Positions 9,404 to 19,912 of a stretch of 64,000 bases of DNA are shown here, piece by piece. The translations under genes and the position numbers were made by a program. This DNA is from Actinomycetota bacterium (GTDB lineage: Bacteria; Actinomycetota; Nitriliruptoria; Nitriliruptorales; JAHWKO01). Numbering within the stretch: position 1 is the stretch's first letter; the number at the start of each line of letters is the position of its first letter. The notes beneath the pieces are model-generated. The model did not search any database. It had not been told where the DNA came from and was given only the letters and a program-made list of their open reading frames with translations. Location of the stretch: NCBI GenBank assembly GCA_019347675.1, contig JAHWKW010000003.1, forward strand, positions 1 through 64,000, given 5' to 3'.

Positions 9404-10567
9404 CTAGTAGACCGGGATGCCGGGATCGATCTGCCGGGCGTAGGCGTTGATGCCGCCCCGCATCGAGCGGGCGCGGAAACCGGCGCCCCGCATGAGCTTC
9501 ACGGCCTCGAGCGACCGGACCCCCGACTTGCAGTGCACAACGTACTCCCGGGCCGGATCCAGCTCGCTCAGCTTTCCCGGCAGCTCACCCTTCGGGATCA
9601 GGGTGGCGGCGGGGATGCGGCTGATCTGGTACTCGTGAGGCTCGCGGACATCGAGGAGGACGACCTGGTCCTTGCGTTCCTCGTATTCGGCCGGCAGGAC
9701 CTCGAAGTCGACCAACGCGTCGATGACCTGCTCGCGATCGTGGGCGGGAACCCCGCAGAACTCCTCGTAGTCGATCAGCTCGGTGACGGTCGGGTTCTCG
9801 CTGCACACCGGGCAGTCGGGGTCCTTGGCCACCCGGACGTACGACCAGCGCGCATCGAGCGCGTCGTACAGGGCGAGCCTGCCGATCAGCGGCTCTCCGA
9901 CTCCGGTGATCAGCTTCAGGGCTTCGGTGGCCTGCGCTGAACCGATCGTCCCGCAGATGATCCCGAACACCCCACCCTCGGCGCAGTTGGGGACCATCCC
10001 CGGCGGGGGCGGCTCCGGGAACATGCAGCGGTAGCAGGGTCCTTCCCTGGCGTAGAACACCGCGACCTGGCCCTCGAAGCGGAAGATGGAGCCGTAGACG
10101 TTGGGCTTGCCAAGCAGCACGCACGCGTCGTTGACCAGGTAGCGGGTCGGGAAGTTGTCGGTCCCGTCGATCACCAGGTCGTAGGGCTCGATGATCTCCA
10201 ACGCGTTGTCGCTGGTCAGGTACGTCTCGTGGATCCGCACGTCGACGAACGGGTTCACCTCGTGGATCGACTCGCGGGCGGATTCGACCTTGCGTCGGCC
10301 GATGTCGGACTGGCCGTGGATGACCTGGCGGTGGAGGTTGGACTCGTCGACCAGGTCGGCGTCGACCAGGCCGATCGTGCCCACGCCCGCCGCAGCGAGG
10401 TACAGCGCCAGCGGGGAGCCGAGCCCGCCGGTCCCCACGAGCAGCACCTTGGCGGCCTTCAACCGTTCCTGACCGGCGATCGCGACCTCGGGGATGATCA
10501 GGTGGCGGCTGTAGCGCGCGATCTCGGCGTTCGTGAGCGGTTCGCGTTGTTCGACGAGCGGCTTCAT
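9404..10567 (-). CDS. moeZ: Adenylyltransferase/sulfurtransferase MoeZ (ThiF domain plus rhodanese)
   Basis: MoeZ adenylates the C-terminal glycine of ubiquitin-like sulfur carriers and loads sulfur on them for molybdopterin, cysteine or thiamine-type pathways. The 387-residue protein has the ThiF ATP loop LLVGTGGLGSPLALYLAAAG near residue 43, the Asp/Arg region DESNLHRQVIHG, and zinc-binding Cys pairs CYRC near 180 and CPVC near 255. A C-terminal rhodanese domain has the active Cys in VVHCKSGVRSLE. A desulfurase (SufS) encoded in the nearby suf operon could supply the sulfur; that link is inference. The next gene upstream on the same strand ends 1,050 bases... actually the neighbouring mrpD ends at 10655, 87 bases away. 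Confidence 0.93.
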   Translation of the reverse strand: MKPLVEQREPLTNAEIARYSRHLIIPEVAIAGQERLKAAKVLLVGTGGLGSPLALYLAAAGVGTIGLVDADLVDESNLHRQVIHGQSDIGRRKVESARESIHEVNPFVDVRIHETYLTSDNALEIIEPYDLVIDGTDNFPTRYLVNDACVLLGKPNVYGSIFRFEGQVAVFYAREGPCYRCMFPEPPPPGMVPNCAEGGVFGIICGTIGSAQATEALKLITGVGEPLIGRLALYDALDARWSYVRVAKDPDCPVCSENPTVTELIDYEEFCGVPAHDREQVIDALVDFEVLPAEYEERKDQVVLLDVREPHEYQISRIPAATLIPKGELPGKLSELDPAREYVVHCKSGVRSLEAVKLMRGAGFRARSMRGGINAYARQIDPGIPVY

Positions 10568-10654: not shown

Positions 10655-12478
10655 TCAGCGCAGGACGAGCAGGTACGAGCCGCCGAGGGCCGCGGCCCCG
10701 ACCGTGATCCAGGCCACGTAGTCGCCCACGTGGCCACTTTGGATCCGTTCCAGGAAGGTCAGCGCCGGGACCGCGACGGCGGTCACCGGCCGGAGCAGTC
10801 GTTGGGGGATGCGGTCGCGGTTGAGCGCCCCCAGCGCGATGGCCACCGCCCCGCCGGCGGCGAGGGCGCCGAGGACCATCGCGGAGGCGTTCAGCGCGAC
10901 GCCCGGCCGTGGTTCGAGACGGACCGTCGCTCCGTCCATCACGGCGGCCTGGTACGCCTGGACGTCGACGAACCGTTCCGCCGCCGACTCGGCCGCACCG
11001 GCCAGTGGGGCAGCCAGGCCGATCGCCACGGCGATCACCACCAGCGCCGCGGCCGGAAGCAGCATCACGGCGGGGGTGTGCTGACGGCCCGTGCCGTTGT
11101 CGTCGGTCTCGGGCAACGGCTCCTCCGCCGCCTGTTCGACGTCGCGACGGGGCGGCGGACCCCAGCCGAAGAACACGCGTCCCGCAGCCCGGAGTACCGC
11201 CCCGGCGGTGAGAGCCCCGGCCACCACGAACACGGCACCCACCCACTCGTAGTGCAGGTGGGCTGCGGCCTCCTCGATCAGCTGCTTGCCCAACGTGGTG
11301 CCGAACGGTGGGAGGCCGGCGAGGCCCAGCCCACCGGCGATGAAGACGGCAGCGGTCACCGGTTGCGACCGGCCGCGACCCCGCAGCCGACCTTCGTCGA
11401 CGCTGCGATGGTGGTGCAGCAGGATCCCGACCGCCAGGAACAGCGCCCCCTTGACGGCGCCGTGGGCCAGCGTGTAGATCCCGGCGCCGGCCAGGGCGCC
11501 AGCGTCCAGCAGGCCGACGCCGATCAGGATCAACCCGGCGTGGCTCACCGACGAGAACGCCAGGAGGCGTTTGAGGTGCCACTGCGCCAGGGCCATGACC
11601 CCACCGACGATGGCCGTGAGCGTCCCGATGGCGACCAGGAGCACGCGCAGGTCCCCGACGTGCGGTTCGAGCTGGCCCGAGAACACCGTCCAGTACACCC
11701 GCGCCCAGCCGTACAGGCCGAGCTCGATCATCACGCCGGAGAACAGCACGCTCACCGGCGTGGGGGCCACCGCGTGCGCGTCGGGCAGCCAGAAGTGGAA
11801 CGGCACGATCGCGGCCTTGACGAACAGCCCGGTCGAGATCAGCAGGAACGCCACGATCACGGTCGCGTCGGGCGGGCCGTCACCGAGCTCGCGGCCGATC
11901 TCGGCCAGGTTGAGCGTGCCGGTGCGCCCGTACAGGAACCCGATGCCGTGCACCAGCAGGAACGCGCCGATGGTGTTGGTGACCGCGAAGTTCAACGACC
12001 CCTGCAGCGGTGCGGGACGCTCGACCTCGTAGGCGGTGAGCGCGTACCCGGTGGTCGTCAGCAGCTCGAAGAAGACGAAGAGGTTGAACATGTCTCCGGT
12101 CAGGGCGAAACCGACCATGCCTCCCAGGAACAGCAGCATCAGGGTGTGGTAGAGGGCACCGATCGCCTCGAAGTACCGCCAGGAGAACAGCAGGGAGGCG
12201 GCGGTCAGCACGGCGGCGAGCGCGGCCGTCCCCGCCCCGAACGGGTCGATCGCGAAGTTCTGCCCGATGGCCTCCCCGCCGAGCGGCTCCCACCCGCCGA
12301 ACCACGTCACCACCAGCGTGGAGGTCGTGGCCAGCAGCACGCACACCACCGCGGTGGCGGCTGCGGCCGCCGCCCCGGCGAGGTCGAGCACCGGGCGTCC
12401 GACCGCAGGTCCAACCGCCAACAGCGCCGTGGCCGACAGCAGCGGGATCACGACGGCCAGGGACGGGAGGGGCTCCAC
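10655..12478 (-). CDS. mrpD: Mrp-type cation/proton antiporter subunit D
   Basis: This 607-residue polytopic protein belongs to the proton-channel family shared by Mrp antiporters and complex I (NuoL/M/N). Diagnostic segments include LTGDMFNLFVFFELLTTTGY, the lysine helix STGLFVKAAIVPFHFWLPDA, SSVSHAGLILIGVGL and AHGAVKGALFLAVGILL, which carry the conserved Glu and Lys residues of the ion path. It is longer than a typical MrpD (about 500 residues) because of a C-terminal region with extra membrane segments ending SYLLVLR. It is the last gene of the operon, one base after mrpC, and the only large NuoL-like subunit in it. Confidence 0.92.
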   Translation of the reverse strand: MEPLPSLAVVIPLLSATALLAVGPAVGRPVLDLAGAAAAAATAVVCVLLATTSTLVVTWFGGWEPLGGEAIGQNFAIDPFGAGTAALAAVLTAASLLFSWRYFEAIGALYHTLMLLFLGGMVGFALTGDMFNLFVFFELLTTTGYALTAYEVERPAPLQGSLNFAVTNTIGAFLLVHGIGFLYGRTGTLNLAEIGRELGDGPPDATVIVAFLLISTGLFVKAAIVPFHFWLPDAHAVAPTPVSVLFSGVMIELGLYGWARVYWTVFSGQLEPHVGDLRVLLVAIGTLTAIVGGVMALAQWHLKRLLAFSSVSHAGLILIGVGLLDAGALAGAGIYTLAHGAVKGALFLAVGILLHHHRSVDEGRLRGRGRSQPVTAAVFIAGGLGLAGLPPFGTTLGKQLIEEAAAHLHYEWVGAVFVVAGALTAGAVLRAAGRVFFGWGPPPRRDVEQAAEEPLPETDDNGTGRQHTPAVMLLPAAALVVIAVAIGLAAPLAGAAESAAERFVDVQAYQAAVMDGATVRLEPRPGVALNASAMVLGALAAGGAVAIALGALNRDRIPQRLLRPVTAVAVPALTFLERIQSGHVGDYVAWITVGAAALGGSYLLVLR

Positions 12479-12479
12479 G

Positions 12480-12833
12480 TCACCCCCGCATGGTGCGCAA
12501 ATCGTCGGGATCGAGCGTCCCGGTGCGCTTGTGGGCCTGGATCGCCAACGCCAGGAGCAGCGCGGTGACGGTCGCGCTGACGACCGCGTCGGTGACCGCC
12601 AACGACTGCACGATCGGGTCGACGGCCGGCGTGTCCAGCGGGGCGTCGGGGAAGATGGGGGGGATCGCGCCGGAACGGAACCCGACGGCCAACAGCAGCA
12701 GGTAGGTCGACGACTGCACGACCGTGACGCACACGACCAGGTGGACGAGGTTGCGGCTGGTGACGATGCCGTAGAGACCGGCCAGGAGCAGCCACCCGGC
12801 CACCACGTACGGCAGAGCCTCGAGGGTCATCGC
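12480..12833 (-). CDS. mrpC: Mrp antiporter subunit C (NuoK-like)
   Basis: The 116-residue product starts at ATG 12830, which overlaps the mrpB stop in an ATGA arrangement. It has three membrane helices and the MrpC/NuoK signature: GLYGIVTSRNLVHLVVCVTV, STYLLLLAVGF, then AVTDAVVSATVTALLLALA with the Ala/Thr-rich third helix. The tail HKRTGTLDPDDLR is typical of MrpC. It forms part of the membrane arm that couples cation export to proton entry. The coordinate range given includes three bases shared with the upstream gene. Confidence 0.9.
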   Translation of the reverse strand, partial: AMTLEALPYVVAGWLLLAGLYGIVTSRNLVHLVVCVTVVQSSTYLLLLAVGFRSGAIPPIFPDAPLDTPAVDPIVQSLAVTDAVVSATVTALLLALAIQAHKRTGTLDPDDLRTMRG

Positions 12834-13588
12834 CGGGTGCGCTCGTGGATCCGGACGGTCTGTTCCAGGAAGTGGGAGAAGATCAGGAGGAACCCGGCGG
12901 TCACCTCGAACCAGATGATGATGTTCAGACCCACGATCGTGCCCGAGGACACCAGTTCCCCCAGCGTCCCCATCGGCCCGATGTTGGTGAGGAAAGATCC
13001 AGCGACGACCAGCCCGACCAGGCCGACCACGATGTAGGCGCCGGCGCTGGCCGCCTCGATCTGCTCCAGCACGCGTTCGGACGTCAGCCGTGCGAACGTG
13101 TCGTACTCGTCGGCGAGGTACAGCGCCAGCACTCCCCCGGCCGTCAGCACGCCCGACTGGAAGCCGCCTCCCGGGGTGAACTGGGCGTGGAGGATGACGT
13201 AGAGGCTGGTGAGGAGGGCGATGCCTGCCAGCGCCGTGCCCGCCAGCTGCAGCGCCCCGCTGGTGGGCGGGACGTCCCTCCCGGGCAGCGCATCGAGCGG
13301 CGGATCGTCGGTCTCGGTGCGCTGCATGCGTAGGAGGAGCGCCACGGCGGCCACCGACGCGAACAGGATCAGCTGCTCTCCCATCGTGTCGAGACCGCGG
13401 TAGTCGAAGATGACGGCGCTGACCAGGTTGAACGAGTTGCGGTCGCGCACGCCGACGTCGAGGTAGTAGTTGCTGACGAAATCCTCGAAGTCGATCGCGT
13501 CGGGCAGGGCCAGGAGCCCCCACAACAGGATCGCAGCGAACCCCGCGGCCCCGACCAGGAACAGTGCCCTGCGGGCCTGCTCGCTCAC
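12827..13588 (-). CDS. mrpB: MbhE-MrpB fused subunit of an Mrp/Mbh-type antiporter
   Basis: The 253-residue protein joins two units. Residues 1-90 (one helix plus NLVSAVIFDYRGLDTMGEQL) match the C-terminal tail of MrpA, which archaeal Mbh operons encode as a separate MbhE. Residues 110-253 form MrpB proper, with LYVILHAQFTPGGGFQSGVL and FEVTAGFLLIFSHFLEQTV. The GTG start at 13588 overlaps the preceding stop (GTGA). Having the MrpA tail on this gene instead of on a giant MrpA is the archaeal-style split arrangement. The boundaries of the two units are my estimate. Confidence 0.88.
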   Translation of the reverse strand: MSEQARRALFLVGAAGFAAILLWGLLALPDAIDFEDFVSNYYLDVGVRDRNSFNLVSAVIFDYRGLDTMGEQLILFASVAAVALLLRMQRTETDDPPLDALPGRDVPPTSGALQLAGTALAGIALLTSLYVILHAQFTPGGGFQSGVLTAGGVLALYLADEYDTFARLTSERVLEQIEAASAGAYIVVGLVGLVVAGSFLTNIGPMGTLGELVSSGTIVGLNIIIWFEVTAGFLLIFSHFLEQTVRIHERTRR

Positions 13589-13824
13589 CGCTGGTTCGCT
13601 CGCACCGCGGCCATGGTGAACAGCACCATCACCGGGACGGCGACGATCCCCACGACGATCATCGCCATCGCGACGCCCGGCGCCTCGAACAGCAGGAAGA
13701 GCACGGCCAGGGTGGACCCGAAGACGCTGGCCACGACCGATTGACGGACCGGGTCGCGGGTGGCCACGACCGCGGTCCCGGCCGCGGCGACCAGCAGCAA
13801 CGCCAGGACGTGCGCCGGCGTCAC
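13585..13824 (-). CDS. DUF4040/MbhD-type small antiporter subunit
   Basis: This 79-residue, three-helix protein reads AHVLALLLVAAAGTAVVATR, SVVASVFGSTLAVLFLLFEA, PGVAMAMIVVGIVAVPVMVL. It corresponds to the DUF4040 segment near the C-terminus of MrpA, stand-alone as MbhD in Mbh-type operons. The FEAPGVAM stretch is the family hallmark; its acidic residue is thought to take part in ion movement. It overlaps both neighbours by GTGA junctions, so it is part of a tightly coupled translation unit. Confidence 0.85.
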   Translation of the reverse strand: MTPAHVLALLLVAAAGTAVVATRDPVRQSVVASVFGSTLAVLFLLFEAPGVAMAMIVVGIVAVPVMVLFTMAAVRANQR

Positions 13825-14153
13825 GCGCTGCCCTCCTCGGCGACCTGCTCGTGGGGGCCGGCGAGCAACCTGCCGGTGCGCCGGATGCGCAGCGCCCGTG
13901 CCGTCGCACGGGTCAGGAAGGGGCTCGACAGCCACAGCACCGCACCGGTGGCCACCACCCGGGCCACGTGCGAGCCGGTGTGGGCGTCGAGCGCCACGGC
14001 CGCGACGATGAAGGCGGTCCCCACCACGGCGGCCGGCCCGACGAGATGCAGCCGGTCGAACGCGTCCGGTGCCAGCACAACGCCGACGGCGCAGATCAGC
14101 TCCGTCGCGACGCCGGCGGCCAGCAGCACGGCGACGATGACGGTCACAGCCAT
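13821..14153 (-). CDS. mrpG: Mrp antiporter subunit G
   Basis: The 110-residue product shows the MrpG pattern: a first helix, the motif DAFDRLHLVGPAAVVGTAFI in which DRLH is the family hallmark, a third helix (VVATGAVLWLSSPFLTRATA) and a charged tail. Family members are usually about 100-120 residues. The ATG at 14153 overlaps the stop of mrpF by 10 bases, and its own stop overlaps the next start. It helps assemble the small-subunit side of the Mrp complex in the cytoplasmic membrane. Confidence 0.9.
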   Translation of the reverse strand: MAVTVIVAVLLAAGVATELICAVGVVLAPDAFDRLHLVGPAAVVGTAFIVAAVALDAHTGSHVARVVATGAVLWLSSPFLTRATARALRIRRTGRLLAGPHEQVAEEGSA

Positions 14154-14395
14154 CGCTCCAGGAAGCGGGTGACGGTCAGCCCGCCGACGAGGATGATCAG
14201 CGCGAACACCAGCGCCACGTCGGAGTAGGAATCGTGCGCGTGGCGGGCGGACAGCACCAGCGTGATCAGGACGGCGATCACCCCGACCAGTTGTGCGGCC
14301 ACCAGCCGGGTACCGACGTCGCCGGTCAGCGCCCCGGCCCCCGCGATAGCCAGCGCGATCAGGAGTCCGACCACCGCCAGGTCGACCGCGGTCAC
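14144..14395 (-). CDS. mrpF: Mrp antiporter subunit F
   Basis: From GTG 14395 the product is 83 residues with three helices (VDLAVVGLLIALAIAGAGAL, LVAAQLVGVIAVLITLVL, SDVALVFALIILVGGLTVTR). The motif ending DVALVFALIxxxG is typical of MrpF/MnhF, where the conserved Asp lies in the third helix. The start is chosen because GTG overlaps the mrpE stop as GTGA, matching the style of the whole operon. A longer reading up to 14461 is possible but would overlap mrpE by about 70 bases. Confidence 0.88.
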   Translation of the reverse strand: MTAVDLAVVGLLIALAIAGAGALTGDVGTRLVAAQLVGVIAVLITLVLSARHAHDSYSDVALVFALIILVGGLTVTRFLERWL

Positions 14396-14880
14396 GTGGC
14401 CCACCGCGGGAACGAGCGCTTGGGGTCGGGTCGGGGCGCGAGCTGGTGCAGCAGCAGGCACTCCTGCCCTTCGATCAACGCCACGACGTAGGTGTTGGGT
14501 GCCACCGACGCCTCCAGGGTGATGGCCGCGTCCAGCGCCGCGTCGATGCGGTGGTCGACCGGGACGGCGATGAACCGCCCTTGCAGCGGCCGTCGCCGCA
14601 GCACGCGATCAGCGAGGGCTGCGGCCACCGCGCGCGTCTCGGCGATGAACACACGCGCGACCGCGGCGAGCCGGTGTAGCTGCGGCAAGGCGCCGGTGAA
14701 GCTGATCCCGGCTGCGCGGAGCGAGACCCGTGACAGCGCGACCGCAGCAGCAGCCACCAGGCTGGCGGCGATCAGCTCCTGCACCGACACCGACACGAAG
14801 AGCAGGTAGATCCCGGCGTAGGTGCCCCACCACACGACGTAGCCCCAGGGGAGCCGCCGCGCTGCACTCCGGTCGACCAC
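14392..14880 (-). CDS. mrpE: Mrp antiporter subunit E, first gene of the operon
   Basis: The 162-residue protein has two N-terminal membrane segments (LPWGYVVWWGTYAGIYLLFV, ELIAASLVAAAAVALSRV) and a cytoplasmic domain ending with the MrpE-like motif ITLEASVAPNTYVVALIEGQ. MrpE is needed for assembly and full activity of Mrp antiporters. GTG 14880 is preceded by GGAGGG; ATG 14916 is an alternative. The operon order E-F-G-DUF4040-EB-C-D continues down the minus strand with overlapping codons. The neighbouring suf operon ends 95 bases upstream, so co-transcription from suf is possible. Confidence 0.88.
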   Translation of the reverse strand: MVDRSAARRLPWGYVVWWGTYAGIYLLFVSVSVQELIAASLVAAAAVALSRVSLRAAGISFTGALPQLHRLAAVARVFIAETRAVAAALADRVLRRRPLQGRFIAVPVDHRIDAALDAAITLEASVAPNTYVVALIEGQECLLLHQLAPRPDPKRSFPRWAT

Positions 14881-14974: not shown

Positions 14975-15451
14975 TCAGACGTTCATGCCCATCGCCTGCA
15001 GCTCGAGGCGCACCTCGTCGGAGATCATTTCCGGGCTCCACGGCGGAGTGAACGTGAAGTCGACGGTGACGTCCTCGACGCCCGGCAACGACCCCAGCAC
15101 GACCGAGACCTGCTGGTCGATCAGCTCGGTGAGCGGGCAGCCCATGCTGGTCAGCGTCATGGTGACGTGCACCCGACCGTCCGATGCCTTGGTGATCTCG
15201 TACAGCAGCCCGAGGTCGACCACGTTGTACCCGATCTCGGGGTCCATCACGGCCTTCATCGCCTCGCGCATGACCTCGACCGATGGCATGCCGTCGTCCT
15301 CGAGCGGGAACCCGGCCGGTCGGGGTGCCCGTTCGGCCGCTTTCTCGGCCTCCTGCTCGGCCTGTCGCTCGACGTCCGATCCCGGCCCGGCGCCGGGCGT
15401 TGGCGGCTCGTGGAGCGTCGTCTCCTCGGGCGGTAGCGCAGCGTCGCTCAT
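14975..15451 (-). CDS. sufT: SufT, DUF59/MIP18-type Fe-S assembly factor
   Basis: SufT-type proteins help place Fe-S clusters into target enzymes. The first 50 residues are a low-complexity acidic Pro/Glu extension; the DUF59 domain follows with VMREAMKAVMDPEIGYNVVD, LGLLYEI and the conserved Cys in TMTLTSMGCPLTELIDQQV. The C-terminal FTPPWSPEMISDEVR is also diagnostic. The ATG overlaps the sufU stop (ATGA), so it is the last gene of the translationally coupled suf set. Confidence 0.93.
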   Translation of the reverse strand: MSDAALPPEETTLHEPPTPGAGPGSDVERQAEQEAEKAAERAPRPAGFPLEDDGMPSVEVMREAMKAVMDPEIGYNVVDLGLLYEITKASDGRVHVTMTLTSMGCPLTELIDQQVSVVLGSLPGVEDVTVDFTFTPPWSPEMISDEVRLELQAMGMNV

Positions 15452-15924
15452 GTCTCCACCTCGTGCTCATGGGTCACCGTGTGTTGCGATCCGCCAGCGC
15501 GGTAGGTCTCCAACGCGTCGCGGAGCGCCATCCAGCCCAGCAGAGCGCACTTCACCCGCACCGGGAACTTCGCGACCCCCTGGAAGACGATCCCGTCGCC
15601 GAGGTCGTCCTCGCGGGCGGGCCGCTCGCCGTGCATCATCAGCCGGAACTGCTCGGCGAGGTCGAGCGCGTCGTCGAGCTCTCGACCCTTCACGGTCTCG
15701 GTCATGACGCTGGCCGACGCCTGGCTGATCGAGCAGCCATCCCCGTCGAACGCCAACGCGCGGACGCGGCCGTCCTCGACGTCGACGCGGAGGTCGAGTT
15801 CGTCGCCGCACAGGGGGTTGCTGTGGTGGACGTGCACGTCCTCACCCTCGAGCGCCGCGGCCCGGTTCTTCGGGCTGCGGTAGTGCTCGAGGATGATCTC
15901 CTGGTACAGGTCCTCGAGGGTCAC
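15448..15924 (-). CDS. sufU: SufU, zinc-dependent sulfur-transfer partner of SufS
   Basis: SufU accepts persulfide sulfur from SufS and passes it to the SufBCD scaffold. The 158 residues hold the three ligand cysteines in NPLCGDELDLRV, FDGDGCSISQASASV and FPVRVKCALLGW, plus the SufU-specific insertion between the second and third that separates it from IscU. The N-terminus LYQEIILEHYRSPKN is typical. It lies 23 bases downstream of the sufS stop and overlaps sufT by four bases. Confidence 0.95.
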   Translation of the reverse strand: MTLEDLYQEIILEHYRSPKNRAAALEGEDVHVHHSNPLCGDELDLRVDVEDGRVRALAFDGDGCSISQASASVMTETVKGRELDDALDLAEQFRLMMHGERPAREDDLGDGIVFQGVAKFPVRVKCALLGWMALRDALETYRAGGSQHTVTHEHEVET

Positions 15925-15947
15925 GCGGGTCTCCTAGCGCGAGAGGA

Positions 15948-17264
15948 TCAGGCCGGGCCGCCGATCGTCTCGGGGTCGCGTTCCTCGGTCACCGGCGCCA
16001 CCGCGTCCGGGACCCGGCGGAAGAAGTCCTTGGCGGCCTCGATGCCGCGGACCAGCGGTGCGATGTCGTCCTCGTCGTTGTAGACGTAGAAGCTCGCTCG
16101 TGCGGTGGCTGCCACCCCCAGGTGGCGCATCAGCGGCTTGGCGCAGTGGTGGCCGACCCGCACGCACACCCCCTCATGGTCCAGGACCGTCCCCACGTCG
16201 TGGGCGTGGACGCCGTCGACCAGGAACGAGATCGACCCGCCGCGGTGGTCAACGTTGGCCGGGCCGTGGACGGTGACCCCGTCGACCTGCTGGAGCGCGG
16301 CCAGTGCCGTGCGGGTCAGCTCGACCTCGTGGCGGCGGATCTCCTCGGGATCGAGGTCCAGCAGGTAGTCGACCGCGGCGCCCAGGCCGATGACCTCGGC
16401 GATCGGCATGGTCCCGGCCTCGAACTTGTAGGGCAGGTCGTTCCAGGTGGCGCCCTCCAGCGTGACGTCGCGGATCATCTCGCCGCCGGTGAGGAACGGC
16501 GGCATCGCGTCCAGCAGCTCCGGGCGCGCGATCAGGACACCGACCCCGGTCGGGCCCAGCATCTTGTGCCCGCTGAAGGCCAGGAAGTCCGCCCCGAGTT
16601 CACCGAAGCGCACCGGCAGGTGCGGCACGGATTGGGCGCCGTCCACCAGCACCTTGCATGCCGGATTCGCGGCTCGTGCCTGCCTGGCCAGTGCCGCGAC
16701 CGGGTTGATGGTGGCCAGCACGTTGCTCTGCTGGGTGATCGCCAGGAACGAGACCTTGCCGTCAGCCAGCAGGCCCGGGACGGCGTCCAGGTCCAGGTAG
16801 CCGGCGGCGGTCACCGGGATGAAGCGCAGCTCGAAGCCGACCTCCCGGGACGCCTCCAACCACGGCACCAGGTTGGCGTGATGCTCCATCTGGGTGGCCA
16901 GCAACGCGTCGCCGGGACCCAGCCGGCGCCGCACCCACGAGTAGGCCACCAGGTTGATCGACTCGGTGGTGTTGCGGGTGAAGACGGTCCCCTCGACCGG
17001 GGCGTCGACGAACGCGGCGACCTTCCGCCGGGCGTCCTCGTACGCGTCGGTGGCCTCGGTCGCGATCTGGTACACGCCGCGGGCCACGTTGGCGCGTCGC
17101 TGCTCGTAGTAGGCCGCCATCGCGTCGAGCACGGGCTGGGGGCTCTGGGCGCTGGCGGCGGAGTCGAGGTACACCAGCCGCTTGCCGTGCACCTGGCGGC
17201 GCAACGTCGGGAAGTCCTTCTTGATCCGGTCGACGTCGAAGCGGCCCATCAGCGTCCTTACCAT
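15948..17264 (-). CDS. sufS: SufS cysteine desulfurase
   Basis: SufS is a pyridoxal-phosphate enzyme that takes sulfur from cysteine as a persulfide. The PLP lysine is in LAFSGHKMLGPTGVG, the persulfide Cys in RVGHHCAKPLM, and the N-terminal YLDSAASAQSPQPVLDAM is typical of class II desulfurases. ATG 17264 is chosen because GGAGG lies five bases upstream; ATGs at 17249 and 17276 are alternatives. The product is about 438 residues with a short C-terminal extension (VPDAVAPVTEERDPETIGG) past the usual end. It sits between sufC and sufU. Confidence 0.95.
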   Translation of the reverse strand: MVRTLMGRFDVDRIKKDFPTLRRQVHGKRLVYLDSAASAQSPQPVLDAMAAYYEQRRANVARGVYQIATEATDAYEDARRKVAAFVDAPVEGTVFTRNTTESINLVAYSWVRRRLGPGDALLATQMEHHANLVPWLEASREVGFELRFIPVTAAGYLDLDAVPGLLADGKVSFLAITQQSNVLATINPVAALARQARAANPACKVLVDGAQSVPHLPVRFGELGADFLAFSGHKMLGPTGVGVLIARPELLDAMPPFLTGGEMIRDVTLEGATWNDLPYKFEAGTMPIAEVIGLGAAVDYLLDLDPEEIRRHEVELTRTALAALQQVDGVTVHGPANVDHRGGSISFLVDGVHAHDVGTVLDHEGVCVRVGHHCAKPLMRHLGVAATARASFYVYNDEDDIAPLVRGIEAAKDFFRRVPDAVAPVTEERDPETIGGPA

Positions 17265-17352
17265 CGTTGCCTCCATCGTGCCGCGGACCCCGCGCCCCGC
17301 CCACTCCCGGGCGGGGAAACCCTCCCGACGCGCGGTGTCGGCATGCCCGGCC

Positions 17353-18105
17353 TCACGCCGCGGGGGTCGCCGCCTCGCGGAACTCCTCGTAGCCCTTCTC
17401 CTCGAGCAGGTCGGCGAGCTCCGGGCCACCGGAGCGCACGATCCGCCCATCGAACATCACGTGCACCTCGTCGGCGTGGATGTAGCGCAGGATCCGGGTG
17501 TAGTGGGTGATCAGCAGCACCCCGAGGTCGGGGCCGACCATGCGTTTGACCCCCTCGGCGACGGTCTTCAGCGCGTCGATGTCGAGGCCGGAGTCGGTCT
17601 CGTCGAGGATCGCGACCGCGGGACGGATCAGCGCCATCTGCACGATCTCGAAGCGCTTCTTCTCGCCACCGGAGAAGCCCTCGTTCACGGATCGCTCGAG
17701 GAAGCGCTCGTCCATGTCGAGGTTGGCCATCTCCGTCTTCAGTCGCTGCATGAACTCGCGGACGGGGACGTCCTCGTCGCTCACGGCGTTCAGCGCCATG
17801 CGCAGGAAGTTGGTCAGCGACACGCCGGGGACCTCCACCGGGTACTGCATCGCCAGGAACAGCCCCGCCTGGGCCCGCTCGTCGGGGTTCATGGCCAGCA
17901 CATCGCGCCCGTCGAGGGTCACCGACCCGCCGGTCACCGCGTAGGCAGGGTGGCCGGCGATCGCGTACGCCAGAGTGGATTTCCCGGATCCGTTGGGACC
18001 CATCAGGGCGTAGGTGCGACCCTGCTCGATGTCGAGGGTCACGCCTTTGAGGATCTCCTTGCCGTCGACCTCGACGGTGAGGTCGCGGATCTCGAGGAAT
18101 GCCAT
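17353..18105 (-). CDS. sufC: SufC ATPase of the SufBCD scaffold
   Basis: The 250-residue ABC ATPase has a Walker A (LMGPNGSGKSTLAYAIAGHP), a Q-loop (LFLAMQYPVEVPGVSL), the signature NEGFSGGEKKRFEIVQMALI and Walker B plus D-loop in AILDETDSGLDIDALK. The Suf-specific signature with SGGEKKR separates it from transport ATPases. ATP binding by SufC reshapes SufB-SufD for cluster building. The ATG at 18105 gives the standard length. About 75 untranslated bases separate it from the Rieske gene and about 88 from sufS, the widest gaps in this operon. Confidence 0.96.
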   Translation of the reverse strand: MAFLEIRDLTVEVDGKEILKGVTLDIEQGRTYALMGPNGSGKSTLAYAIAGHPAYAVTGGSVTLDGRDVLAMNPDERAQAGLFLAMQYPVEVPGVSLTNFLRMALNAVSDEDVPVREFMQRLKTEMANLDMDERFLERSVNEGFSGGEKKRFEIVQMALIRPAVAILDETDSGLDIDALKTVAEGVKRMVGPDLGVLLITHYTRILRYIHADEVHVMFDGRIVRSGGPELADLLEEKGYEEFREAATPAA

Positions 18106-18179
18106 CTTTTGTCGTCTCCTTGAAGTCTGTTGAGGGTCTCCGGTGTGGTGACCGGCCGAACCGTGCCGGCCGCTGGTCT

Positions 18180-18524
18180 CTAGTGGTCGGGGATCGGTGC
18201 GTCGTTCAGCTGCTGGTCGATGTCGACCAGGACGTCGTCGCCGTCGACCTTCGCCGCGAAGATCGGGATGGGTTCGGTCGCGGGGAGGGTCTCGGCCTCG
18301 CCGGTCTCCAGGTCGAACGTCGAGCCGTGCAGGGCGCACTCGATCGAGCAGCCCCACACCAGCCCCTCGTGCAGGGGATAGTCCTGGTGCGAGCACACGT
18401 CGTAGGCGGCCCGCACCGAACCGTCGTCGCAGGCAACCACGCAGATCGGGTGACCGTCGAGCTTGACCTGCAGCCCCGTCCCGGGGATGAGGTCGTCACG
18501 GGTGGCGACCTTCTCGAACACCAC
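18180..18524 (-). CDS. Rieske-type [2Fe-2S] ferredoxin inside the suf operon
   Basis: The 114-residue soluble protein carries the Rieske pair of motifs: DVCSHQDYPLHEG (C-x-H) and IECALHGSTFDLETG (C-x2-H), so a [2Fe-2S] cluster with two Cys and two His is expected. It resembles the small subunit ferredoxins of dioxygenases and NirD. The GTG start overlaps the sufD stop by one base, so it is made with the suf proteins. It could deliver electrons for cluster assembly or repair; that role is inference from position only. Confidence 0.92.
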   Translation of the reverse strand: MVFEKVATRDDLIPGTGLQVKLDGHPICVVACDDGSVRAAYDVCSHQDYPLHEGLVWGCSIECALHGSTFDLETGEAETLPATEPIPIFAAKVDGDDVLVDIDQQLNDAPIPDH

Positions 18525-19912
18525 TACGCCGCACCTCGCTCGTTGGCTGCCACGCCGCGGCCTCGGCCGCGGCGGGCGATCGCCGTCAGGTCGGCGCGGT
18601 CGACCTCGGCCTCGATGTGCTGCAGCGTCCGTGCCTGCACCGCCGGCAGCGCGATGCGATCGAGCACCTCGGCGAAGAAGCCGAACACCACCAGGCGCAG
18701 AGCGTCGGCGGCGCTGATCCCCCGCGACTCGAGGTAGAACAGCTGCTCCTCATCGATCTGGCCGGTGGCCGAACCGTGCCCGGCCGTGACCTCCGCGCAC
18801 TCGATCTCCAGGAACGGGGTGGAATCGGCCTTGGCGCCTTCGGACAGGATCAGGCTCTTGTTCACCTCGTTGGACGCGCTCCCGATCGCGTCACGGTGGA
18901 CGAAGATGTGTCCGCGGAACACGGTGCGGCTGCGGCCCTGCAGCGCCCCCTTGTACAGCACCTCCGAGGAGGCGTGGCCGGCGACGTGCGCGATGAACGG
19001 ATGGTGCTCGAAGTGCTGTCCTTCGTCGGAGAAGTAGATCCCGAGCGGCTCGATCCGCGACCCCGCGCCGACCAGGTGGACCTCGGGGCGCAGACGGACG
19101 GTGTCCCCACCGATGGTGACGGTGAGGTGGCGGAGCTGGGCGTCACGGTGGAGCGCCGCGGCGTGCACGACCAGATGGCCGACCCGTCCCTGCCAGTCCT
19201 GGATCGTCACCAGATCCAGGTGGGCACCGTCACCGACGACCACCTCCGCGACCTCGTCGACCGTTGTTGGGGTGTCCAGATCAGCTGATACGTGCTCGAC
19301 GTACAGCTCGGCTCGGCTGTGGCGATCGGCGATGACCAGCAGGCGCGGCAGGTGCGCGCCGGACTGCGCCGCCTGGATCGAGATACCGATCGGTTCGGCG
19401 AGCTCCACCTCCGGCGGGATGTACACGAACACGCCAGCCGTCCACGCGGCGTCGTTGGTCGTCACCGTGCGGTCGTGGTCGGCGGTCAGCGAGCCGAGGT
19501 GCTGACCGACCAGGTCCTCGTGTGTGGTCGCGGCGGTGGCGAGGTCGGTGATGACCACGCCGAGCGCCTCGGCGTCGGAACAACCCATGACCGTCACCCG
19601 GCCATCGCGGAGCTCGACACGTCCGGCCAGGTCAACGTCGTCCAGGAGCGGCGACGGGACCGGCGCGGCCAGCTCCCCGTCGCCTGTGACGATCGGGACG
19701 TCGACGGCGAAGCGGGTGAACGGCGTGTCGCGCCACAGCTCCTCGCCGCGGAGCTGCGGCCATCGCTGGTCGACCCATGTCTTGAACGCCTCCAGGCGGC
19801 GGTCGCGGAGCCATCCGGGCTCGCCGGCCGCGTCGGCGCGACCAGCGAGGAACTCCTCGGTGAGGGCCTCGAGCGTGGTCCCCACTCGAGCGCCCGAGGT
19901 CGCGGAGGTCAT
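18524..19912 (-). CDS. sufD: SufD scaffold protein
   Basis: SufD pairs with SufB and SufC in the Fe-S scaffold. The 462-residue protein shows the SufB/D beta-helix with [49 protein letters not shown], and the C-terminal helix-rich end [20 protein letters not shown]. SufD is more divergent than SufB, as usual. The C-terminus adds about 20 Arg/Gly-rich residues ([15 protein letters not shown]). It overlaps sufB by four bases at the start and the Rieske gene by one base at the end. Confidence 0.95.

Follow-up and report, generated by a model that had tools for sequence, protein, structure and literature searches.

A stand-alone, MrpA-less Mrp operon of Mbh-type order with replaced charged residues along its proposed ion path

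The stretch analyzed here, called the window, comprises 64,000 nucleotides (nt) from an Actinomycetota bacterium (assembly GCA_019347675.1, contig JAHWKW010000003.1, positions 1 to 64,000). Its reading frames and their translations reveal a seven-gene Mrp-type operon on the minus strand at 14880-10655, in the order E-F-G-MbhD-[MbhE+MnhB]-C-large subunit. With modest confidence, and judging from the sequences of the encoded proteins, we favor the reading that this operon encodes a stand-alone, MrpA-less Mrp of group 3 and Mbh type, whose most likely role is cation/proton exchange at a rebuilt ion site. Because charges along the proposed ion path have been replaced, the label "Mrp antiporter" does not by itself imply a "Na+/H+ antiporter" here. 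Stand-alone Mrp systems lacking MrpA and bacterial operons that begin with E-F-G-B are already in print. What is new here is the loss of the acid in transmembrane helix 2 (TM2) of MrpC together with an invariant Asp in TM3, the tail fusion of the large subunit, and the disappearance of the TM8 Lys. We found no published description of an MbhH-MbhI fusion or of the MrpC charge swap, with most subscription literature lying outside the reach of our search.

Gene content, order, and relatives of the operon

The seven genes, with lengths in amino acids (aa), are as follows.

14392..14880, minus strand: MrpE/MbhA-like subunit, 162 aa, GTG start
14144..14395, minus strand: MrpF/MbhB-like subunit, 83 aa (PF04066, 40 bits)
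13821..14153, minus strand: MrpG/MbhC-like subunit, 110 aa (PF03334, 46.5 bits)
13585..13824, minus strand: MbhD/DUF4040 subunit, 79 aa (PF13244, 33.1 bits, cut-off 27.2)
12827..13588, minus strand: fusion of MbhE (aa 19-91) and MrpB (MnhB, aa 115-234), 253 aa
12480..12830, minus strand: MrpC/MbhG-like subunit, 116 aa (PF00420, Oxidored_q2; best PDB matches 6u8y_G and 6cfw_G)
10655..12478, minus strand: single large antiporter-like subunit, 607 aa (Proton_antipo_M), with a core of MrpD/MbhH type (14 TM, about aa 1-515)

Pfam matches exceeded the curated cut-off for six of the seven proteins, all but MrpE, which gave no Pfam match at E 0.001 and weak NCBIfam MrpE matches below the cut-off (best E 2.9e-5). 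MrpE was also found in related loci by a family hidden Markov model, and Pro occupies the MrpE P114 column in 43 of 45 rows; His36 of MrpG is kept in all 47 rows. The initial annotation had described the C-terminal pieces of MrpA as split and fused, which Pfam bears out: the first part of the MrpA TM17-21 region is the separate MbhD subunit, and MbhE (29.3 bits, cut-off 27) shares a chain with the MnhB domain, the top PDB match of that fusion protein being 6u8y_E (E 8.3e-18). No full MrpA is encoded in the operon, as had also been proposed; there is one Proton_antipo_M protein, and all non-A subunits (B domains, C, D, E, F, and G) are present, E weakly by sequence. Relative to MBH, the membrane module A-H is present in mbh order, and no redox module J-N lies beside the operon. 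The genes overlap by 4, 10, 4, 4, and 4 nt, followed by a 1-nt gap between C and the large-subunit gene, so that the six overlapping junctions first claimed become five; these overlaps may help to hold subunit ratios steady, as first suggested. A scan for promoters and terminators returned none of either and was uninformative.

Relatives were collected by a scan with the large subunit and six peptide patterns, which confirmed 464 of 512 stretches; the best 80 were kept and are the base of all counts. The first 44 (loci L054 to L097) share 40-50% identity with the large subunit in the best segment, and the match extends to residue 590 or further in all but two (L081 and L097, where it ends earlier). 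Relatives ranked after these 44 are 29-38% identical, with matches that stop at residues 407-520. The full order, E F G MbhD MbhE-B C D, is found in 33 of the 44 loci, and the remaining 11 are truncated at contig ends, have a large gene broken in two, or contain a single additional MbhD match. No second large subunit and no differing order was seen in the flanks available for the 44 loci. Since 33 related loci show this order in full and none contradicts it, a chance arrangement is ruled out, and the Mbh-like order noticed in the window, with all seven genes in place, holds well beyond it.

By NCBI phylum, 35 of the 44 loci belong to Actinomycetota, four to Acidobacteriota, and one to each of five further phyla, many being metagenome-assembled genomes (MAGs). 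Eight further copies of the order (L018 to L025) come from the window's own phylum, with the large gene cut by the locus end. The lineage is present in culturable Streptomyces, Arthrobacter, and Citrifermentans, and deletion, expression, and mutation are therefore practical.

Several of the collected loci vary in gene structure. In L081, a second MbhD-like match (838-1053, 77 bits) lies in a 352-aa frame upstream of a complete operon. The large-subunit gene is in two pieces in L085 (2217-3863) and L091 (6016-8171), which may reflect sequencing error or decay. A Candidatus Aenigmatarchaeota contig (L116, 1145-4872) has the order E F G MbhD MbhE B C D, with MbhE and B in separate frames; its large-subunit frame is 485 aa long, and the TM8 Lys column is occupied by Ser. 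Many operons of candidate phyla among L099 to L132 split MrpA into an N-terminal protein of about 600 aa and a separate MbhD+MbhE protein, an arrangement between groups 1 and 3; 26 of the N-terminal proteins served in the tail comparison below.

We compared the layout with those of known systems. Group 3 (stand-alone) Mrp operons have no mrpA, one or more copies of mrpD, and irregular gene order (PMC8415708, PMC5703873), which is what we find here: mrpA is absent, mrpD is present, and the order is irregular. The closest published counterpart is the MrpA-less stand-alone Mrp of Pyrococcus furiosus, mrpEFGBB'CD (Pf1147-53), for which Na+ use and a role in the pH response are reported; its deletion made cells more sensitive to acidification and reduced the Na+ stimulation of H2 production (PMC8415708). 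Judged by that published layout, the two systems share subunit set and order, the lack of MrpA, one antiporter-like subunit, and the lack of a redox module. They differ in that P. furiosus has MbhD joined to MbhE and a free-standing MrpB, whereas the window has a separate MbhD and an MbhE-MrpB fusion; moreover, the published subunit table of P. furiosus has no counterpart of MbhI, while the large subunit of the window has a predicted MbhI-like tail. Other published bacterial operons that belong to group 3 or begin with E-F-G-B, MrpA-less or irregular, are those of Microbacterium sp. TS-1 (mrpFGBCDDAE; PMC5703873), the Solemya velum symbiont (MrpEFGBBCDD; PMC4287430), NPL-UPA2 (MrpEFGBBBCD and MrpDD; PMC6305446), and Verruconatronum (MrpEFGBCD1D2D3; PMC13274419), each listed with at least two D-type subunits (or an A) versus one large subunit here.

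Among solved complexes, the operon resembles P. furiosus MBH (mbhA-N, 6cfw) in its apparent collinearity from mbhA to the N-terminal part of mbhI, with a core nearest MbhH, and resembles MBS (6u8y) in its fusion of MbhE+MbhF type, as in MbsE; both MBH and MBS have Gly at the column of MrpA E706. Unlike them, it lacks the J-N redox module, has H- and I-like parts fused, and has replaced the MrpC TM2 acid and the TM8 Lys. Canonical group 1/2 Mrp complexes (6z16, 7qru, 7d3u, and the host genome's own operon, locus L013) have homologous E, F, G, B, C, and D subunits and the C-terminal pieces of MrpA. In contrast to these, the operon of the window lacks the N-terminal antiporter domain of MrpA, has an MrpA-type tail on its D-like subunit, and has replaced the E706, H37, H40, D35 (MrpF), and K250 columns, while D792/E796 are kept.

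The large subunit and its C-terminal tail

In profile comparisons with PDB chains, the core of the large subunit scored highest against MbhH (274.5 bits), followed by MbsH (234.8 bits), MrpD chains (222, 220, and 214 bits), and MrpA (165 bits or less). The large subunit had been noted as longer than usual, and the AlphaFold model of the single chain agrees (predicted local distance difference test score [pLDDT] 92.3, predicted template modeling score 0.94): a predicted TM-helix-TM unit follows the 14-helix core.

10658..10933, minus strand: C-terminal extension of the large subunit (aa 516-607), with TM15 (531-552), an amphipathic helix (559-579), and TM16 (584-606)

The pLDDT of this tail is 86-98 by blocks. 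The hydrophobic moment is 0.58 for the 559-579 helix and 0.04 and 0.14 for the adjoining helices, and the TM16 region carries a conserved HSGxVxDYVxWL motif. In structural alignments to the model, NuoL-type chains extend to residue 585-590, while the MrpD and MbsH chains among those listed end at 514-516. Profile-profile comparison matched the tail at 87.5% (32 columns) with the tails of 26 MrpA-like proteins, versus 24% with the ends of 36 MrpD-like proteins. When the tail profile was searched against the PDB with E up to 10, two chains were returned, 7rmy_A (E 0.1) and MbhI of MBH (6cfw_I, E 0.36); the latter, a weak match, is the single natural chain found, and its HsGvvGDYvaWL aligns with HTGLLPDYVSYL. 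From the model and these comparisons we conclude that the extra length is a tail of NuoL/MrpA/MbhI type, and its identity as MbhI specifically is likely but not proven. With such a tail, the operon would be collinear with the mbh genes from mbhA into the N-terminal part of mbhI. In MBH, helix HL of MbhI is short and covers one antiporter subunit, and HL length tracks the number of antiporter subunits (PMC7684303).

Phylogeny sets this protein apart. In a 60-row tree, the clade together with L018 to L020, L023, and L024 forms a single long-stemmed group (100/100) distinct from MrpD, from MrpA/NuoL, and from Mbh/Mbs. Approximately unbiased (AU) tests of four possible sister placements rejected none of them: ordinary MrpD (P = 0.451 and 0.221), Mbh/Mbs (0.27), and MrpA/NuoL (0.157). 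Phylogeny thus places the large subunit in a group of its own, for which ordinary MrpD stays acceptable as sister. Since all four AU P values exceed 0.05, we make no claim of descent. The idea that the large subunit is a plain MrpD or an MrpA remnant was set aside, the tree giving a separate group with no sister resolved.

Charged residues along the proposed ion path

Residues were compared between clade rows (the window, L018 to L025, and L054 to L097, where readable) and reference rows (L098 to L133), with numbering from PDB alignments and residue roles from PMC7419157 and PMC9568556. Most references are MrpA-containing operons of a single kind from little-known phyla, and their large-subunit rows mix MrpA-type and MrpD-type proteins. 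Residue counts share descent, and the MrpC charge swap may be a single event. Three codons of the window mark the main replacements.

12588..12590, minus strand: codon of MrpC Asp81, a residue invariant in the clade (A76 column of solved MrpC)
12714..12716, minus strand: codon of MrpC Gln39 (MbhG D37 column), where the clade has no acid
11723..11725, minus strand: codon of large-subunit Glu252 (MrpD K250, TM8 Lys column), where Lys is replaced

The most consistent change lies in MrpC. The TM2 acid is found in 0 of 50 readable clade rows (Q45 H5, and one gap among 51) and in 32 of 36 references (E30 D2), while TM3 has Asp81 in all 51 clade rows, spanning seven phyla, and in 0 of 36 references. 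By count from the PDB alignment, Asp81 occupies the column of the residue before I77 of Bacillus pseudofirmus MrpC, and I77 is one of two hydrophobic residues that separate Glu687 from a putative sodium-exit tunnel (PMC9568556). Loci L026 and L027, which have the same order and a large subunit in the Mbh/Mbs tree group, lack Asp81.

In the large subunit, Lys is absent from the TM8 column in all 53 clade rows (E38 P8 Q3 D2 T2) and present in 61 of 65 references. The TM5 Glu is kept in 53 of 53 clade rows (references E42 G22 of 64) and the TM7 Lys in 52 of 53, the last being Arg; the TM12 Lys occurs in 29 of 44 clade rows versus 67 of 67 references. The MrpA D792/E796 columns, which are D67 and E71 of the fusion protein, hold D and E in all 50 clade rows and in all 34 readable references. 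At the MrpA E706 column the clade has G39 S9 N1 of 49 (MbhD G59 in the window), and 30 of 32 references have Glu. Simple loss of the E706 acid was considered and rejected, as Mbh and Mbs also have Gly there, with a Glu (MbhD E69) four residues earlier; that column has Glu in 15 of 49 clade rows and Met (M55) in the window. Compensation between E69 and MrpC position 85 (Glu in 17 of 51) was likewise discarded because no mutually exclusive pattern appears and 8 of 48 loci have both.

MrpF D35, described as conserved without exception among canonical Mrp (PMC7419157), is Gln in the window; the clade has E19 Q18 S4 T2 and others of 46, and the references have Asp in 32 of 33. At the MrpF D29 column, where the alignment is uncertain, the window has Thr and about a quarter of the relatives have Asp. 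The MrpC H37/H40 columns are Ser/Tyr in the window, and they say little because the references mostly lack both His as well. In the canonical L013 operon of this genome, the MrpA E706 column still has Glu, and MrpC H37 and MrpF D35 are still His and Asp (these two by eye), so that this operon serves as an internal control for the comparison.

If the seven proteins form one complex, it would contain the counterparts of MbhA to MbhH plus the N-terminal portion of MbhI, with E fused to F and H to I, and would lack a redox module. Its own short amphipathic helix and TM16 would brace the single antiporter-like subunit as MbhI braces MbhH. Protons would follow an axis through the large subunit formed by Glu(TM5)/Lys(TM7) and His/Lys(TM11), and the cation coupled to them would pass at the MbhD/MbhE/MrpC interface, where the ligand set may have been rebuilt: MrpC TM3 Asp81 and MbhE Asp67/Glu71 would replace the MrpC TM2 acid and, in this genome, also the MbhD/MrpA acid. 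The Lys/Glu pair and the exit-side acid pair would thus be kept, with the entry and coupling ligands changed. Exchange could be driven by the membrane potential or the proton motive force (pmf) and may serve pH or cation homeostasis. Gene content and order, conservation, the residue replacements, and the lack of a further MnhB-bearing Mrp complex in most related genomes are observed, and the tail architecture is predicted; we infer assembly of the complex, the direction of exchange, the identity of the cation, and a takeover of the ligand role by Asp81.

More tentatively, the operons may represent a distinct lineage, frequent in Actinomycetota, scattered in six other phyla, and so far without a name, in which an MbhH-MbhI fusion replaces MrpA plus MrpD and the move of the MrpC acid from TM2 to TM3 rebuilds the ion site, giving an unstudied cation route. 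In such a lineage the moved acid would adjoin the residue between the sodium-loading Glu687 and the proposed exit, and the ion itself is perhaps different.

Four points weigh against a rebuilt exchanger bearing an MbhI-like tail. The window lacks residues proposed or shown to matter for Na+ transport in canonical Mrp (MrpA E706, MrpC H37/H40, MrpF D29/D35, and the MrpD TM8 Lys). At the TM8 position, 15 of 53 rows have Pro, Gln, Asp, or Thr, and the Glu there thus has no fixed function. Placing Asp81 near the old site depends on residue numbering and on descriptions in print, the AlphaFold model being of one chain. In the tail search, moreover, 7rmy_A, a designed and unrelated helical protein, outranks the weak match to MbhI.

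The strongest competing explanation, which we regard as unlikely but worth serious weight, is an ordinary group 3 Na+/H+ antiporter that transports as the P. furiosus or canonical Mrp does and whose residue changes are neutral drift. Subunits and order are the same as in the P. furiosus stand-alone Mrp, the Lys/Glu pair and the MbhE D/E pair are kept, and the Gly at E706 and the Glu in 15 of 49 rows at MbhD E69 have the Mbh/Mbs parallel given above. However, the MrpC swap is not drift-like in its constancy across seven phyla, and MrpF D35, invariant in canonical Mrp, is replaced. A rather improbable alternative is a module that conducts protons or is coupled to the pmf but exchanges no cations, for example one that energizes another transporter or acts as a controlled leak, in keeping with the loss of several cation ligands. 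DAB2 is akin to these operon subunits. Mrp and antiporter-like proteins are mentioned in a paper on membrane-potential-coupled CO2 hydration by DAB2 (PMC13144422). Yet all of MrpE, F, G, and B, which make up the module for sodium translocation in MBH (PMC8415708), are kept and conserved, and the operon has no conserved partner gene.

A rebuilt exchanger would bear on a disputed question, the coupling of proton and sodium movement in Mrp. The authors of the 2.2-Å structure state that sodium passage across the hydrophobic stretch from Glu687 to Glu780 of MrpA is not yet clear (PMC9568556). The lineage is a natural experiment in this respect: the Lys/Glu pair and the exit-side acids are retained, the acid of the Glu687 column and the TM8 Lys are missing, and an invariant MrpC Asp would lie beside that stretch. 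If the proposal is true, cations would be exchanged by a route, and perhaps with an ion, unlike those of the Mrp complexes studied so far.

Partner genes and MrpA elsewhere in the genomes

No conserved partner gene was found, no neighbor cluster spanning more than 6 of the 44 loci, although flanks are short in many; the largest clusters (six loci) include antisense reading frames and common families. This bears on the quite improbable idea that the MbhI-like tail serves to dock a redox or other module whose genes lie at another site, giving an Mbh-like respiratory complex in trans. Such a tail corresponds to the element that ties the peripheral to the membrane arm in MBS and MBH, and the genome has three NiFe-hydrogenase large-subunit genes (C7:54237, C1:119314, and C9:127168; L047 to L052), none of them beside the Mrp operon. 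Against docking, no neighbor family recurs beyond those six loci, all PF00346 matches in this genome are on C4 and C9, beside nuo-type large subunits, and the same tail type also occurs in MrpA and NuoL.

The host genome has 12 Proton_antipo_M matches: this operon, a canonical MrpA/MrpD pair at C9:86-90 kb, six among nuo-type genes on C4 with PF00346 matches alongside, and three in a complex-I-like cluster on C9. Its full MrpA (P0008, 956 aa, an A+B fusion in L013) sits in its own complete A'-C-D-E-F-G operon (C, E, and G by eye from translations), and the second MnhB domain of the genome lies inside P0008. When P0008 was used to query the 44 genomes, five gave 492-518 bits over most of MrpA (L069, L072, L078, L080, and L094); in the other 39 no match exceeded 189 bits, and among the rows listed these matches cover just the NuoL-like part. 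A Pfam MnhB search found two places in exactly those five genomes and one, the operon's own, in each of the 39, which include MAGs that may have gaps; 9 of the 14 isolate (NZ_) records fall among the 39. In most genomes examined, the operon is thus the sole MnhB-bearing Mrp complex, and it lacks the MrpA half. A free-standing NuoL-like protein may act as partner in the 39 genomes. Some Streptomyces-type genomes have open frames of about 900 aa; the six that we read end in a NuoL-type tail and not in MbhD/MbhE/MnhB.

As far as can be told, then, no mrpA elsewhere belongs to the same complex, in line with the initial annotation. That the operon borrows the MrpA of the canonical operon in the same genome is very improbable, even though a full MrpA with a second MnhB domain exists there: P0008 has its own MnhB domain and operon, the large subunit itself already bears an MrpA-type tail, and, as a general explanation, borrowing was rejected because 39 of the 44 genomes with a related operon lack both a full MrpA and any MnhB domain beyond the operon's own.

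A same-strand run of genes resembling a suf iron-sulfur cluster operon and ending in a DUF59-type gene (names by eye) lies 94 nt upstream of the operon, and a MoeB/ThiF-rhodanese-like gene (by eye) follows 87 nt after it; these flanking genes span 14975-19912 and 9404-10567 of the window on the minus strand, and neither neighbor recurs in related loci. Elsewhere in the genome, a complex-I-like cluster (L014 2840-11283; G000:C9, about 106.8-115.3 kb) combines three Proton_antipo_M genes with NuoA- and NuoH-like ones, in addition to the nuo-type genes on C4, and encodes a highly divergent protein of 49-kDa type, whose PF00346 match scores 48.6 bits on a portion of the model. Just upstream of the canonical mrp operon, L013 8015-9302 contains a row of four short reading frames.

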